Part shown: positions 66 to 19,032 of the stretch, one piece after another
Numbering within the stretch: position 1 is the stretch's first letter
How the letters are laid out: each line of letters begins with the position of its first letter
Origin: a virus
IMG/VR virus record: IMGVR_UViG_3300025383_000111
Location: 1-22,908 of that record
Length of the DNA: 22,908 nucleotides
Reading direction: 5' to 3' (one strand)
The notes under the pieces: model-generated
Told to the model about the DNA's origin: nothing
The model's database searches: none
Seen by the model: only the letters and a program-made list of their open reading frames with translations
Position numbers and translations under genes: made by a program

Positions 66-469
66 ATCTTTGCCTCTACAATTCTGTAGCGTTCTTCAAA
101 ACCATATCTACTCCACAAACGGGCTATAGACTCTCTAGCAGCACCTTGTATTTTTGTTGCTCCAAGTTGCTTAAATATACTTGCCATCTGAGCATACGTA
201 TCTTTGTTAGATATTAATCTACCGCCAATAAACGTAATAAAAGCAATCCGGTCATTTGGCATATTTAAAAATGTTACCGTTGCCGCACCGTGTATTGCTC
301 CCTGCTCATCTACTGCTACCAATAACAACCACTGCCCAGTACAAACGTATGATTTTACTTGCTCTAGCGTGTAATCATCACCACCGTATTTTTGCGCTTC
401 TGCTATATGTTTTTCAACATCTGGCCATACTTGAGCGCAATAATTAACGTTTACGTGCTTAACAATCAT
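62..469 (-). CDS. GNAT-fold-like phage protein (T7 gp13-like context)
   Basis: A 135-residue protein with the layout of a small N-acetyltransferase-like fold: an N-terminal helix pair (residues 12-43), strands WLLLVAV (47-53) and AATVTFL (62-68), a strand AFITFIG (76-82), then a helix and a C-terminal RLWSRYGFEERYR stretch (118-129) typical of the last GNAT strand. The acetyl-CoA pyrophosphate signature (Q/RxxGxG/A) is not evident, so catalysis is doubtful. It overlaps the upstream ejection-type gene by ATGA. In T7-like phages the internal virion protein gp13, which I recall being grouped with acetyltransferase folds, lies just after the tail nozzle gene; the order here is comparable. Either a virion-associated GNAT-like protein or a true acetyltransferase is possible. 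Confidence 0.6.
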   Translation of the reverse strand: MIVKHVNVNYCAQVWPDVEKHIAEAQKYGGDDYTLEQVKSYVCTGQWLLLVAVDEQGAIHGAATVTFLNMPNDRIAFITFIGGRLISNKDTYAQMASIFKQLGATKIQGAARESIARLWSRYGFEERYRIVEAKI

Positions 470-4803: not shown

Positions 4804-5397
4804 TTACCCTAGTATTTGTTTTGCTTTAGTTATTTTAGCAATTCTGTCATCTAAACCCAAGGTCCCGCCGTTAATTCTTTTGGTCATCTGACCGTACTCT
4901 TGAGCATCTGCTAGGTCATTAAGACCAGCTTTATTCCAAAACCAGCCTGCGCTCAAAGACGCATATTTAGGATCAAGCAACCAATTAGGGTTCCCAACAA
5001 AATCCACACCCAAACCAGATCCGCATCGCTCATAGTTCTCTTTGCCAGTAAGCTGAATTAAGCCTCTGCCGTGGTATTTCCAGCCATCACCAGACTCCTC
5101 GTCACCATTGCCCATACGACCCGCATATACCTTATTAGCGATCTTTTCTGGGTTATTAGCGTATTGAATAGCATATTCTAATGTAGTAAAGCGAGATGGC
5201 CACACCTTCATCAAAGACTCAGCTTTGTAGTGTAAGTTCTCTTCTAATGTTTTAAAGTTATTAGATTCATGCATGCATTGACCTAAGAAAGAGGCCTGAC
5301 GTTGGGTGGTGCTGATGTTGTACTTAATAAAAGTATCCATCAATGGTTGATACCATTTTGTATCAATTCCTAGCTGGGTTAATTGTTGTTCAGTCAT
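4804..5397 (-). CDS. Endolysin, glycoside hydrolase family 19-like
   Basis: A 197-residue single-domain lysozyme-like enzyme that would cleave peptidoglycan glycan strands at the end of infection. Visible family marks are GQCMHESNNF (residues 39-48) with the presumed general acid Glu44, LEENL (51-55) with a second acidic pair, KVYAGRMGNGDEESGDG (89-105), and the strongly conserved YHGRGLIQLTGKENY (108-122), followed by SAGWFWNKAGLN (149-160) and RINGG (174-178). The length is normal for phage GH19 endolysins lacking a separate binding domain. There is no signal peptide or anchor, so export would depend on a holin. Its start overlaps the end of the i-spanin by ATGA. Confidence 0.93.
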   Translation of the reverse strand: MTEQQLTQLGIDTKWYQPLMDTFIKYNISTTQRQASFLGQCMHESNNFKTLEENLHYKAESLMKVWPSRFTTLEYAIQYANNPEKIANKVYAGRMGNGDEESGDGWKYHGRGLIQLTGKENYERCGSGLGVDFVGNPNWLLDPKYASLSAGWFWNKAGLNDLADAQEYGQMTKRINGGTLGLDDRIAKITKAKQILG

Positions 5398-5837
5398 TTA
5401 ATGCCTACCTGTTCATTTATCCACTTTTGTAACTCAACCAACATTAAGGTTGTTTGGGCGCAGTTTGCAGCAAGTTCATTGTAGGAGGAGACAACATCAG
5501 CTGACTTGGGGGCTGCGGAAATGCCGGACACGGAGCCGCCACCATTGTTGCTCCACACGCTTGTAGACTTGTAATAATTACGCAGAGTATTAAGCTTCGC
5601 ATCGTATTCATCAGATATTCCTTTAGTTACTAATTCATGTTGTTTTTGGATTGCCGCTGTTTGGTCCGCTTGTTTTTGTGCAGTAATAGCAACTTCATCT
5701 TTGAATTGAACAAAACGCAAATGCTCCACATAAAAGCCAGCTCCAAAACCGCCAACAGCCAAAGCCAAATATATATAAATTTGGACACTAGACCCACCTA
5801 TAAAACTGGTAGCTAAACTAAATAAATTTTTCCACAT
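5394..5837 (-). CDS. i-spanin (Rz-like inner-membrane lysis protein)
   Basis: A 147-residue protein with one N-terminal membrane segment (about 18-37, IYIYLALAVGGFGAGFYV), then a polar, Gln/Lys/Glu-rich stretch likely to form a periplasmic coiled coil (41-90). The C-terminal YNELAANCAQTTLMLVELQK (119-138) matches the conserved end of Rz-type i-spanins. Paired with an outer-membrane lipoprotein it would fuse inner and outer membranes in the last lysis step. It lies between a holin candidate and the endolysin, as in lambda-like cassettes. Its coding sequence contains the complete o-spanin gene in the +1 frame (5444-5611). The partner and the context make the call firm. Confidence 0.88.
   Translation of the reverse strand: MWKNLFSLATSFIGGSSVQIYIYLALAVGGFGAGFYVEHLRFVQFKDEVAITAQKQADQTAAIQKQHELVTKGISDEYDAKLNTLRNYYKSTSVWSNNGGGSVSGISAAPKSADVVSSYNELAANCAQTTLMLVELQKWINEQVGIK
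5444..5611 (-). CDS. o-spanin lipoprotein (Rz1-like), embedded in the i-spanin gene
   Basis: A 55-codon gene lying wholly inside the i-spanin gene in the +1 frame; it is easily missed because it is short. It reads MNTMRSLILCVIITSLQACG, a textbook lipoprotein signal: Arg5, a hydrophobic core (6-15) and lipobox LQAC with Cys19. The mature 37-residue peptide is Pro-rich (AAPCPAFPQPPSQL.. and ..SPPT..), as Rz1 proteins are. AAAGGA at 5624-5619 stands seven bases before the ATG at 5611; a second in-frame ATG at 5602 lacks such spacing. It ends in TAA at 5444. It would sit in the inner leaflet of the outer membrane and bind the i-spanin C-terminus. A fully nested Rz/Rz1 arrangement is known from lambda. 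Confidence 0.88.
   Translation of the reverse strand: MNTMRSLILCVIITSLQACGATMVAAPCPAFPQPPSQLMLSPPTMNLLQTAPKQP
5619..5624 (-). promoter_or_regulatory. Ribosome binding site of the embedded o-spanin
   Basis: Minus-strand AAAGGA, seven bases before the ATG at 5611. It sits inside the i-spanin reading frame and decides between the two in-frame ATGs (5611 and 5602) in favour of the first. Confidence 0.65.
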
Positions 5838-6073
5838 TATTGTGCGTCCGGTTCAGCACCAGCCATTTGTTTACCAGCAACAGAAGCAGCACCGGAACCA
5901 GAAACAATACCTAATGCACCAGCTAATTCGGTCAAACTAATATCTTTGCCGGTATAAATTAAATAAATTGCGGAACAACCAACAAGGAAAAAACCTAGCA
6001 TCCATGCCCATTTAGCAATATCGTGTGTCTCGTTGTCTTTACCAGTTAGAATATGTTTTAGTATGTCGTTCAT
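5837..6073 (-). CDS. Putative holin (small membrane protein)
   Basis: A 78-residue protein opening with a short polar segment containing TGKDNETHDIAKW (10-22), then a strong membrane segment (about 22-41, WAWMLGFFLVGCSAIYLIY). A weaker Gly/Ala/Ser-rich segment (47-66) follows, and a short charged tail. The 'GKDNxTxDI' start followed by one or two membrane spans is, from memory, common in small phage membrane proteins encoded beside lysozymes. Directly upstream of spanins and endolysin, and TAATG-coupled on both sides, it is the best holin candidate in the window. The other candidate is the neighbouring tail-anchored 151-residue protein. Topology (N-in with one or two spans) cannot be settled from sequence alone. 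Confidence 0.55.
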   Translation of the reverse strand: MNDILKHILTGKDNETHDIAKWAWMLGFFLVGCSAIYLIYTGKDISLTELAGALGIVSGSGAASVAGKQMAGAEPDAQ

Positions 6074-6528
6074 TAAATTACTCCCAATACAAATTTAAGC
6101 CATAAAGTCACAATCAAAGCAGCTACAAAACAATAAAACTGCACCCGCCTTACTTCTTTTAAATCATGCTGGAACTCTTCGTTATCTTTTCTTTGAAGGT
6201 TTTCAATATCCAGCTTAATTTTTAATACTGCTTCCCACTCTTTTGCACCGTACTTCTTTACAAAATCAATTTTCAATTTTGCCTCCTCATCGGAGATTTG
6301 TTTCTTACGCTTCCACTCTTCAAGCGCTTTAATCAGCGCCCTTTCTTTCTTTACTTCTGCTTCCCGTCTGGCACGGATGCGTTCTTGTGCCTGACGCTGC
6401 GCTACTTCTAAACCATCTTTTTGTATATTTTCAATCTGCTTAGAAACTGATTTACTTGCTTCACGAGCAGAATCTAAGCTTGCATTAAGCCCTTTGACTC
6501 CTTCTGAAAGTCCTAATGGGTCTGGCAT
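6073..6528 (-). CDS. Coiled-coil, C-terminally membrane-anchored phage protein
   Basis: A 151-residue protein. Residues about 20-125 are almost entirely charged helix (Glu, Lys, Arg, Gln) suited to a long coiled coil. Residues 130-150 (QFYCFVAALIVTLWLKFVLG) form one membrane anchor with almost no tail after it, so the coil would face the cytoplasm. Proteins of this design, beginning with a 'DPxGL..GVKGL' type segment, recur from memory in environmental phages close to lysis genes. A role in lysis timing or membrane association is possible but unproven. It overlaps the holin candidate by TAATG. Confidence 0.6.
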   Translation of the reverse strand: MPDPLGLSEGVKGLNASLDSAREASKSVSKQIENIQKDGLEVAQRQAQERIRARREAEVKKERALIKALEEWKRKKQISDEEAKLKIDFVKKYGAKEWEAVLKIKLDIENLQRKDNEEFQHDLKEVRRVQFYCFVAALIVTLWLKFVLGVI

Positions 6529-15684: not shown

Positions 15685-16140
15685 CTAATCTGGACTGCTA
15701 TAGTTAATACTACTAGTGGTAGTACCAAGGGTTAAAATTGCGGACGAATAACTCGCCGTTGGAAATTGCACGGTAAAGCTAGTAGTACAGGTCTTGTCCG
15801 ACCCAAAATTTAATACAAAACATGCTGCTCCAGTAGTAGCATTGTATACTAATGCCCCCCTAGCGGTAAAGGACGCTGGGTTCCAAACTGCGTTTTGGAA
15901 AGACACGTAAGTGACGTTGTACTGGTTATTTTGGGTAGGTGGTACGGAGATAGTCAATACTTTGCCCCCAGCTGTATAGCCGGTTCCTACTACTTCATTA
16001 GTGGTTGTGTAAGCCGTAGTCTGCTGCCCTAGGTTTGCCAACGCATTGTACAGGGCTATTTTATAAGTCCCGGTGGTAAAGTTTTCATTACCGTTTAGCA
16101 AATTCTGCTGAAAAATTGTGCAGGAAGTCTGGGTAATCAT
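15685..16140 (-). CDS. Small virion protein, beta-rich
   Basis: A 151-residue protein: SCTIFQQNLLNGNENFTTGT (6-25), YKIALYNALANLGQQTTAYT (26-45), TTNEVVGTGYTAGGKVLTIS (46-65), and SFTARGALVYNATTGAACFV (90-109) followed by LNFGSDKTCTTSFTVQF. The family pattern 'sFkqelL.G.h.F....yKiALYts.A.l...T..Yt.t.Ev.gtGYtaGG..L' and 'aRgAliYn' is frequent next to podovirus-type adaptor genes. It is probably a head-tail joint or tail decoration protein; the role is inferred from neighbours. The start overlaps the stop of the 319-residue adaptor by ATGA. Confidence 0.68.
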   Translation of the reverse strand: MITQTSCTIFQQNLLNGNENFTTGTYKIALYNALANLGQQTTAYTTTNEVVGTGYTAGGKVLTISVPPTQNNQYNVTYVSFQNAVWNPASFTARGALVYNATTGAACFVLNFGSDKTCTTSFTVQFPTASYSSAILTLGTTTSSINYSSPD

Positions 16141-17096
16141 GAGACCACATTACCTTTAAGATTAATATTAAGCTTGGTCTGACCGTCCCTGTAAGCATCA
16201 CCACGATCAAGACCGTCACAGAAGCGTCTAAACTCTAACAAAGCCTCATTATATTTTTGCTCGTAGTATGCCACTAAGTCCTGCTCTTGCTTCATAAACA
16301 GCATAGCTTCACGCATAGCGCCATAGAAAAGAACGGGGTCGTAGTTATCGCCAAGCCAGCTTGTGCCAGATGCATTAGATACCGTAGATACAGTAACTGT
16401 AAATCCAGAACCGGTAGGTCCTAAAGAAGAGCAAGACAAAATGTCTCCTACAACATAGAAATTCCCACCGAAAGTAATATTACAAGAAGTAATTGCGCCA
16501 CCAGTAATAACGATATCTGCTGTAGCATTGGCTCCTGAGCCTCCTGTTAATGGAACGTTTTGGTATACACCGTTGGTATATAGCGATCCTGCATTAGAAA
16601 TAGATGAACCACTAATTTGACCTTGCACAATGGTAGGTGGGTAGTAGTAATAGTGCATCTCTACTGGATAGGATTGGTCTGGCGTAGGAGCTACCATCAA
16701 CGTCATTTCGTTAATATTGCTGTATTGCGAACCAAATAGCGCATAGTACTTAGGAGTGCCGCCCGGAGTACCTTGATAGGTGGTTCCGTTACTAGTAGCA
16801 AAAGGATAAGCCTGACGCAAGAAGTTAACATCTTTGTTAATAAGATAGTTATACATGCCTGTAGTTGGGTCAATCACAGCCACAGAATAGTTAGCCAACC
16901 AGTCCATAGGCAAAGAAATGTATTGGTTTCCTGCGGTCATAGTACCGGTTACATTTTTACGTAATGACGGTACGTTTACGGAGTTATATATACGAGTTTC
17001 AGCTTCCTCAACAAACGTGGGGATATTAGCCACGAACAGCTGTTCAGTGTTCTCGGCGTAAGCTTGAATCGTGTTATATAACGTTTCGTAATTCAT
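16137..17096 (-). CDS. Head-tail connector / adaptor (T7 gp11-like) with inserted beta domain
   Basis: A 319-residue protein. The N-terminal helical part (YETLYNTIQAYAENTEQLFV, 3-22; IPTFVEEAETRIYNSV, 25-40) and the strands VPSLRKNVTGTMTAGNQYIS (42-61) and LPMDWL are typical of a tail-tube or adaptor family placed below the portal. The C-terminus resumes with GDNYDPVLFYGAMREAMLFM (249-268) and QDLVAYYEQKYNEALLEFRR (272-291), the usual helix pair. Between HYYYYPPTI and SWLGDN, residues about 160-242 form a Gly/Thr-rich beta insertion (VPLTGGSGANATADIVITGG, then NFYVVGDILS). The protein would form a ring joining the portal complex to the tail hub. Its start is TAATG-coupled to the small basic protein upstream. 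Confidence 0.65.
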   Translation of the reverse strand: MNYETLYNTIQAYAENTEQLFVANIPTFVEEAETRIYNSVNVPSLRKNVTGTMTAGNQYISLPMDWLANYSVAVIDPTTGMYNYLINKDVNFLRQAYPFATSNGTTYQGTPGGTPKYYALFGSQYSNINEMTLMVAPTPDQSYPVEMHYYYYPPTIVQGQISGSSISNAGSLYTNGVYQNVPLTGGSGANATADIVITGGAITSCNITFGGNFYVVGDILSCSSLGPTGSGFTVTVSTVSNASGTSWLGDNYDPVLFYGAMREAMLFMKQEQDLVAYYEQKYNEALLEFRRFCDGLDRGDAYRDGQTKLNINLKGNVVS

Positions 17097-18078: not shown

Positions 18079-19032
18079 TTACCTAGAATAGAACAAATTA
18101 CGGGGCACAAACCGTAGGGATGCCTTTTCACGGTCTTCATCAGCAGCTAATTGGAACTGTTGCTCATAATCAGCCTTTAACATTGGTACTCGATTCATAT
18201 CAATATTAGGTAACTTCATGGATAGGTAATAAGCCAATCCAGAGGCCATAGCAGGGATAAACCGGAATGGGATATCCTCGGTATTGATACCGGTTCCTGA
18301 GTCCTGTATACGGCGCATACGGTAGTAAATGAACGTGTATTGAGTGCCAGATACGCCAGTAGGCCAGATATTGATATTAGGCAAGTAATTGTTGTATACC
18401 AAAGATCCTGCTGTATGCGATGCAGCAGTTGTGTTATTCATGCCACGGTAGCAGTTAAGCAACTGGTTAGCATTACCGGCTGCTGCGGTTCCTAGGTTTT
18501 GGTACAGAATGGTTTCACCGTCAATATTGATGTAGCCTTGACTACGCATATTAGCTGTAGAGGTTACATAGATAGTGGTATCTGTAGCGCCAATAGGGTA
18601 TCCGCTAGCCAAAGTTGTTACTGGAGATGCGTCAACGTTTCCAGATTGACGATCAATCCACACTTGAATAGGACGTCCTTGAGCGTTCTTAGTAGGAAGA
18701 TCTAAGTAATCATCAGCAGAGATGCGGGTAATATTGATATCCACTTGGTTTTGACCAGTACCCTGACGAATAACGTGGTCGTATAGGTCAATCGTATCTA
18801 CAGGAATTGGATAGCTAATCTGCCCGCCGTTAATGTTGATAGGAATCTGACCTTGCTCAATAGTCCATAAGTTGATTCCACGGTTAGCCCACTCAATAGT
18901 AAGCATATTAACGCTACGAGCAGCCGTTCTAAAGTCGTAACCAGAACGGGATTGCGTACCGCAACGCTCAAAGGCTTCCTCAATGAGATCGCCCATGTCT
19001 AAATTAAACGATGCGGTTCCGGATGTAGCCAT
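18079..19032 (-). CDS. Head-tail adaptor (P22 gp4-like) with inserted beta domain
   Basis: A 317-residue protein. Residues 8-60 (SFNLDMGDLIEEAFERCGTQ, then AARSVNMLTIEWANRGINLW) form the helical bundle typical of adaptors that bind below the portal, followed by ISYPIPVDTIDLYDHVI. The C-terminal part has FIYYRMRRIQDSG (234-246), DIPFRFIPAMASGLAYYLSM (253-272) and QLAADEDREKASLRF (294-308), the family's usual end. Between VWIDRQ and LPNINIWPTG, residues about 134-215 form an extra beta domain with YINIDGETILY, LLNCYRGMNNTTAASHTAGS, a common 'iDgE.i.Y...l..c.RG...T.Aa.H..G' virion module. It should act as a connector ring; the choice between gp4-like and gp11-like for this and the 319-residue protein is uncertain. 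Confidence 0.65.
   Translation of the reverse strand: MATSGTASFNLDMGDLIEEAFERCGTQSRSGYDFRTAARSVNMLTIEWANRGINLWTIEQGQIPININGGQISYPIPVDTIDLYDHVIRQGTGQNQVDINITRISADDYLDLPTKNAQGRPIQVWIDRQSGNVDASPVTTLASGYPIGATDTTIYVTSTANMRSQGYINIDGETILYQNLGTAAAGNANQLLNCYRGMNNTTAASHTAGSLVYNNYLPNINIWPTGVSGTQYTFIYYRMRRIQDSGTGINTEDIPFRFIPAMASGLAYYLSMKLPNIDMNRVPMLKADYEQQFQLAADEDREKASLRFVPRNLFYSR

Follow-up and report, generated by a model that had tools for sequence, protein, structure and literature searches.

The window, by which we mean the whole 22,908-nt stretch of DNA analysed here, is positions 1 to 22,908 of IMG/VR record IMGVR_UViG_3300025383_000111, and it carries a lysis cassette on its minus strand. The i-spanin gene (5394..5837, (-)) is a 147-aa open reading frame recognized by its homologs, by its hydropathy and by matches of members of its family to PHROG 'Rz-like spanin' families. 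Its stop codon overlaps the start of a GH19-type endolysin gene (4804..5397, (-); Pfam PF00182, E 5e-10; phrog_181 endolysin, 3e-81) in the sequence ATGA, and its start codon overlaps the stop of the gene for a 78-aa membrane protein (5837..6073, (-)) in the sequence TAATG. The latter protein is likely the holin, as judged by position and hydropathy; Pfam and PHROG searches gave no convincing family match for it. Beyond it lies an open reading frame for a 151-aa protein whose hydropathy indicates a C-terminal membrane segment (6073..6528, (-)), a probable further neighbor in the cassette. When 10 relatives were scanned for endolysins near their spanin genes, GH108 enzymes were found in six, GH19 enzymes (the type in the window) in three and a phage lysozyme in one. 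The flanks of loci L015, L022, L041, L084 and others place one spanin gene family beside these differing endolysins and beside two or more small holin-like membrane proteins that are unrelated to each other, and such varied neighbors are those of a shuffled lysis cassette. Elsewhere on the minus strand of the window, two proteins (16137-17096 and 18079-19032) matched the Pfam SU10 adaptor family with E-values of 1e-19 and 2.8e-5, the latter below the cut-off.

A second gene lies wholly within the i-spanin gene. Its frame (5611..5444, (-)) is +1 relative to the i-spanin frame 5837..5394 (-), and it runs from an ATG 226 nt into the i-spanin gene to a TAA that ends 50 nt short of the i-spanin end; its start and end are thus at 0.51 and 0.89 of the i-spanin length (L). 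The sequence upstream reads AAAGGA-ATATCTG-ATG, in which the Shine-Dalgarno sequence AAAGGA (5624..5619, (-)) lies 7 bases 5' of the ATG and coincides with i-spanin codons K72-G73. In the 55-aa product, Arg5 and a hydrophobic stretch are followed by the lipobox LQA|C19, which was assessed from pattern and hydropathy only; the codon of Cys19, the predicted lipidation residue, is at 5555..5557 (-), and cleavage there would leave a mature peptide of 37 aa (the Cys counted; 5447..5557, (-)) with nine prolines and one further Cys. An earlier note on this DNA, which gave no strand, had described just this 55-codon frame at 5444-5611 with its AAAGGA, lipobox and Pro-rich mature peptide, and all of these are present as it described them on the minus strand. 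The host i-spanin has a probable N-terminal membrane segment at about residues 17-35, followed by the periplasmic part. The hydropathy score of this segment is 1.45 in the window, below 1.6, and among the homologs it is at least 1.6 in 51/65 and at least 1.4 in 64/65.

Homologs were collected by searching with the i-spanin, which found 27 viral loci, and with its alignment (A1), which found 80. Examination of 87 loci gave 65 distinct hosts after a 25-residue fragment (L027) was dropped; L001 is not independent, since its i-spanin is identical to that of the window. All 65 distinct i-spanins carry a nested lipoprotein frame in the identical +1 phase that ends inside the host gene, starting at 0.43-0.52 L and ending at 0.85-0.91 L (L073, which is cut at its 3' side, reads 0.94), so the same frame with its lipobox, which the earlier note had proposed to look for in related phages, is general in the family. 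An SD-like sequence precedes the nested start across the upstream regions of the 65 hosts, the motif PPxxL[MT]xxPPT occurs in 65/65, and Cys19 and PPxxL..xPPT..LL are invariant in the 30 o-spanins that were aligned. A search with the o-spanin alignment gave 80 loci, all 80 of them embedded in +1 (contig ends cut five at the 5' side and two at the 3' side) and many of them on the same contigs as the loci found with the i-spanin. Because the portion of the 2018 survey of spanins used here (Kongari et al. 2018, PMC6139136) reports no spanin family that mixes embedded with other architectures, these relatives were screened for overlapped or separate o-spanins, and none was found among the 80 loci.

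Seventy-seven of a third set of 80 loci carry the o-spanin by pattern. The other three are L238, which is intact with the atypical lipobox QLAC, L247, which runs off its contig, and L205 (host from 1201), in which an intact i-spanin gene is accompanied by an in-frame stop in the Pro-rich part of the o-spanin. An intact i-spanin with a stop in the +1 frame is what the earlier note had named as telling against a nested gene. L205 is the sole premature stop among all the loci examined, and it reflects either genuine loss or an error in the sequence. A profile search of bacterial and archaeal contigs with alignment A1 gave no i-spanin homolog, and tblastn of the 55-aa o-spanin against phages gave no match. 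The same search with the i-spanin matched only two records of the phage collection (35.9% and 31.8% identity, none at 40%). The nested o-spanin is unannotated in both of these records, MW202520 (L030) and MW202796 (L031), the former of which also lacks an annotated i-spanin, which bears out the earlier expectation that such a gene is easily missed by gene calling.

Long out-of-frame open reading frames are common in this DNA (there are 87 of at least 50 aa in the window), so could the +1 frame be an untranslated accident of the i-spanin codons? We recoded the i-spanin gene synonymously 20,000 times with the codon usage of the window. The +1 span stayed open in 434 of these trials, which leaves an accidental opening conceivable, and it was open with an ATG in 285, but no nested lipoprotein ORF of at least 45 aa arose anywhere in the 20,000. 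Recodings of all 65 distinct hosts predict 0.12 nested lipoproteins in total, and 63/65 native genes satisfy the identical strict criteria; the exceptions, L018 and L084, have frame and lipobox but lack K/R near the start. The translation signals are also conserved as host codons. Among the 43 core homologs the Shine-Dalgarno codons are AAA in 40/43 and GGA in 37/43, against a background of 145 GGA among 680 Gly codons in the genes of the window, and the i-spanin D codon that contains the o-spanin start is GAT in 43/43. Because K72-G73 spell the Shine-Dalgarno sequence and the D codon holds the start, the best-conserved motif of the i-spanin, KGIxDEY, may in part be a footprint of the nested o-spanin start.

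Selection in the two frames was compared through the mean number of changes per host codon position, with 45 non-redundant hosts on the tree. Upstream of the nested gene the values for positions 1, 2 and 3 are 8.2, 6.1 and 9.6; the overlap has 6.2, 3.4 and 5.6, and the part after it has 6.7, 2.6 and 13.2. The drop at third positions in the overlap relative to both flanks (p 1e-7, a nominal value since the sequences are related) is the synonymous-site conservation that the earlier note had suggested looking for. Pairwise identities among the 43 core homologs are 0.66 (host) and 0.49 (nested) in the signal-peptide part, 0.54 and 0.77 in the Pro-rich core, and 0.64 and 0.38 in the nested C-terminal tail, respectively. 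The nested/host identity ratio in the core is 1.28-1.43, compared with a maximum of 0.85 in 66 control windows. Since the host leads in the signal and tail and the nested frame leads in the Pro-rich core, the two genes share their DNA by turns; constraint alternates segment by segment, one frame being conserved where the other is loose. The earlier view of constraint on both proteins across 56 codons therefore holds for each protein in its own segments and not for both throughout.

The above results argue against chance, because 65/65 homologs carry the o-spanin frame, 0/20,000 recodings do, and third-position changes fall inside the frame. The start, SD-like sequence, lipobox and Pro motif are present in every one of the 65 hosts, and the nested identity in the core exceeds that of the host beyond any control window, so that an untranslated accident is exceedingly improbable. 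Might the nested gene instead encode a lipoprotein other than a spanin, for example a superinfection-exclusion lipoprotein of the Cor type? The Cor family phrog_1119 does match 4/30 o-spanins (best E 0.03), but Rz-like spanin families match 28-29/30 with better E-values. The nested position inside an i-spanin gene of a lysis cassette, the similarity of the Pro-rich motif to that of lambda Rz1 and the invariant partner Cys of the i-spanin likewise speak against it, and we consider a non-spanin lipoprotein very improbable. Individual family matches are as follows: phrog_3198 ('Rz-like spanin') matches 29/30 o-spanins, mostly with modest E-values (best 3e-6); the o-spanin of the window alone matches PHROG 'Rz-like spanin' weakly, at E 0.12-0.31 as a single sequence; and phrog_739 ('Rz-like spanin') matches 20/45 i-spanins (best 2e-4). 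Pfam Rz1 (PF06085) weakly matches 7/30 o-spanins (best E 0.0036), that of the window not among them. The gathering cut-off of Pfam Phage_lysis (PF03245, Rz) was not reached: 2/45 i-spanin family members matched it (best E 0.03), and the window protein matched no Pfam family. Comparison by hhalign gave a probability of 91.5% for o-spanin versus lambda Rz1 and of 10% for i-spanin versus lambda Rz, the latter confined to the C-terminal 28 residues.

We are therefore highly confident that 5444..5611 (-) encodes the o-spanin of an embedded two-component spanin, given its frame and signals, the selection on the +1 frame and its placement beside holin-like and endolysin genes. By analogy with lambda, one transcript would be read in two frames, giving the i-spanin, a type II inner-membrane protein, from 5837 and the o-spanin from 5611 by way of its own Shine-Dalgarno sequence. 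After export, the o-spanin would receive its lipid at Cys19 and be tethered to the outer membrane, where its Pro-rich peptide would contact the periplasmic part of the i-spanin. After the endolysin has cut the wall, the spanin complex would join the inner and outer membranes and so open the last barrier. Lipidation, complex formation, disulfides and membrane fusion are thus ascribed to this pair on the lambda model. Regarding disulfides, Cys126 of the i-spanin is invariant in 45/45 non-redundant hosts, and the further Cys of the o-spanin is present in 57/65 hosts and absent in 8/65. In the o-spanins of L048, L051, L061, L108, L121 and L140 it is replaced (PQAPFP, KQADFP, KQAEFP) and the i-spanin Cys is retained. 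These losses fit the statement in the survey text that one intermolecular disulfide is enough in lambda spanins (PMC6139136).

The +1 frame has a further open stretch upstream of the o-spanin, and we call this candidate second nested frame ORF-A (5630..5788, (-)); in the window it has 52 codons, a GTG start preceded by an AGGTGG-like Shine-Dalgarno sequence, a hydrophobic segment and a basic tail, and a longer version could start from a GTG at 5797 (-). It is open in 77/85 lineages, where about four are expected. Over 41 codons, 41/43 core homologs are open (0.95 compared with 0.04 expected, or 1.7 sequences), as are 15/19 (1.07 expected) and 21/23 (1.47 expected) of the lineages unused for its discovery, and the +2 frame, examined as a control only, is open in none of the three lineage sets. 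Two of the 15 (L110 and L135) have the open frame without the usual start motif. Before the nested o-spanin the longest +1 run of 45 hosts averages 52.7 codons, compared with 30.5 in recodings. An xTA codon before A or G creates a +1 TAA or TAG, and in i-spanin genes xTA occurs in 41/453 cases before A/G and 116/293 before C/T (counts from related sequences), whereas neighbor genes show no such avoidance (1801/5252 and 803/2738, respectively). In 41/43 core homologs an ATG (35) or GTG (6) lies ahead of the hydrophobic segment, whose score exceeds 1.6 in all 41, and the tail charge of these 41 is +5 to +11. The start is followed by Ser in 38/43 and by Lys in 38/43; the V/I host codons at the Ser site end in TC in 37 and TT in 2, while other genes of these loci use GTT 1994 times and GTC 433 times. 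Dividing +1 identity by host identity gives 1.04 for the TM half and 0.73-0.80 for the other ORF-A windows (the 66 controls average about 0.6), and at the residue level support for ORF-A appears good in the TM half and weak in the tail. In 43/43 the frame has a stop codon that starts 18 or 21 nt ahead of the o-spanin ATG (21 nt in the window).

These features suggest, at a confidence that falls a little below even, that the i-spanin gene carries two nested +1 genes and that ORF-A encodes a small single-TM protein ([M/V]..SK, ~20 hydrophobic residues and a basic tail). Its putative topology is probably N-out/C-in, and it may tune the holin, or feed ribosomes to the o-spanin by way of the stop 18-21 nt before the o-spanin start. 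If there are two nested genes, the host motifs YVK and KGIxDEY could both be partly footprints of nested starts, a view that we hold equally tentatively. About an even chance is given by us to the alternative that there is no product and that the frame is open through common ancestry of a TM-coding module together with its base composition. Base composition does account for part of the ORF-A hydrophobicity, which scores 2.32 as observed and 1.74 in open recodings. In a forward neutral simulation the mean number of open tips was 2.0-3.9 of 43 and the maximum was 12, but neighbor genes exceed this simulation too, so it is too strict and was set aside as evidence in favor of recodings and control families. 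Most windows of the control families are near expectation, but one GH19 window is at 0.48 open and one GH108 window at 0.78 open. The latter is in the second half of the GH108 endolysin (L041, L044, L132, L163 and others), where 78% of 27 sequences keep a 41-codon stretch of the +1 frame open compared with 3% expected, mostly in one subclade, which is perhaps inertia or another overlapping frame. A pairwise synonymous test for ORF-A was not significant and underpowered (5/16 versus 4/6, p 0.18). Eight of the 85 lineages are broken: L002 (by one TAG), L084, L107, L114, L140, L167, L217 and L241. The i-spanin N-termini of L084, L107, L114, L140 and L167 lack the YVK motif, as do those of the distant relatives L030 and L031, which are outside the 85. 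No consistent SD precedes ORF-A in the 43 core homologs; the window clade has the AGGTGG-like sequence 5 nt before the GTG, and L033 has AGGAGG. Searches of ORF-A against Pfam and PHROGs gave no consistent family, and no ORF-A-like product was recognized among the papers listed for spanins, holins, overlapping genes and ribosome profiling. Against an absence of product stand the openness of all three lineage sets with none in the +2 frame, the TM-half ratio of 1.04 above the control maximum, and the avoidance of xTA before A/G in the i-spanin gene and not in its neighbors. If ORF-A is a gene, a 444-nt gene would encode three membrane-directed lysis proteins, and a lysis gene already doubly used would hold a third product for which annotators of embedded spanins should check.

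The embedded spanin architecture itself is known, textbook from phage lambda; what is new is this family from uncultivated phages, a well-supported addition to the embedded spanins. According to the survey text (PMC6139136), the embedded class accounts for 182 of 528 two-component spanins, and within that class about 70% start at 0.4-0.5 L and end at 0.9-1 L. The survey also counts 196 o-spanins that annotation had missed. An o-spanin wholly within the i-spanin gene and out of frame, the architecture by which that text defines the class, is found here, as is at least one periplasmic Cys (Cys126, 45/45). The family was probably outside the survey, because the i-spanin matches only the two phage records above, neither at 40%. 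In lambda (J02459) Rz1 occupies 287..469 and Rz 67..528 of L032, again in +1; Rz1 starts 220 nt into Rz and stops 59 nt short of the Rz end, close to the 226 and 50 nt of the window. The earlier note had contrasted the window with lambda in that the nested gene starts and ends well within its host, and this distinction fails since Rz1 does the same. The mature o-spanins are similarly Pro-rich (9/37 in the window and, from the survey text, 10/40 in lambda; PMC6139136), and the i-spanin C-terminus has QK[YW]INEQ as in Rz. Sequence similarity is otherwise weak, with likeness to Rz only over the last 28 residues. Gene order differs, the GH19 endolysin following the spanins in the window and R preceding Rz in lambda, and lambda has no +1 frame of at least 50 aa upstream of Rz1 to compare with the extra open frame here. 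In the part of their study drawn on here, Cahill et al. (PMC5295617) found that regions of one lambda protein silent to mutation lie opposite sensitive regions of the other. Here that hand-over between frames shows up in evolutionary rates, from natural variation in a distant family rather than from mutants, and this variation shows selection switching frame by segment in agreement with lambda genetics.
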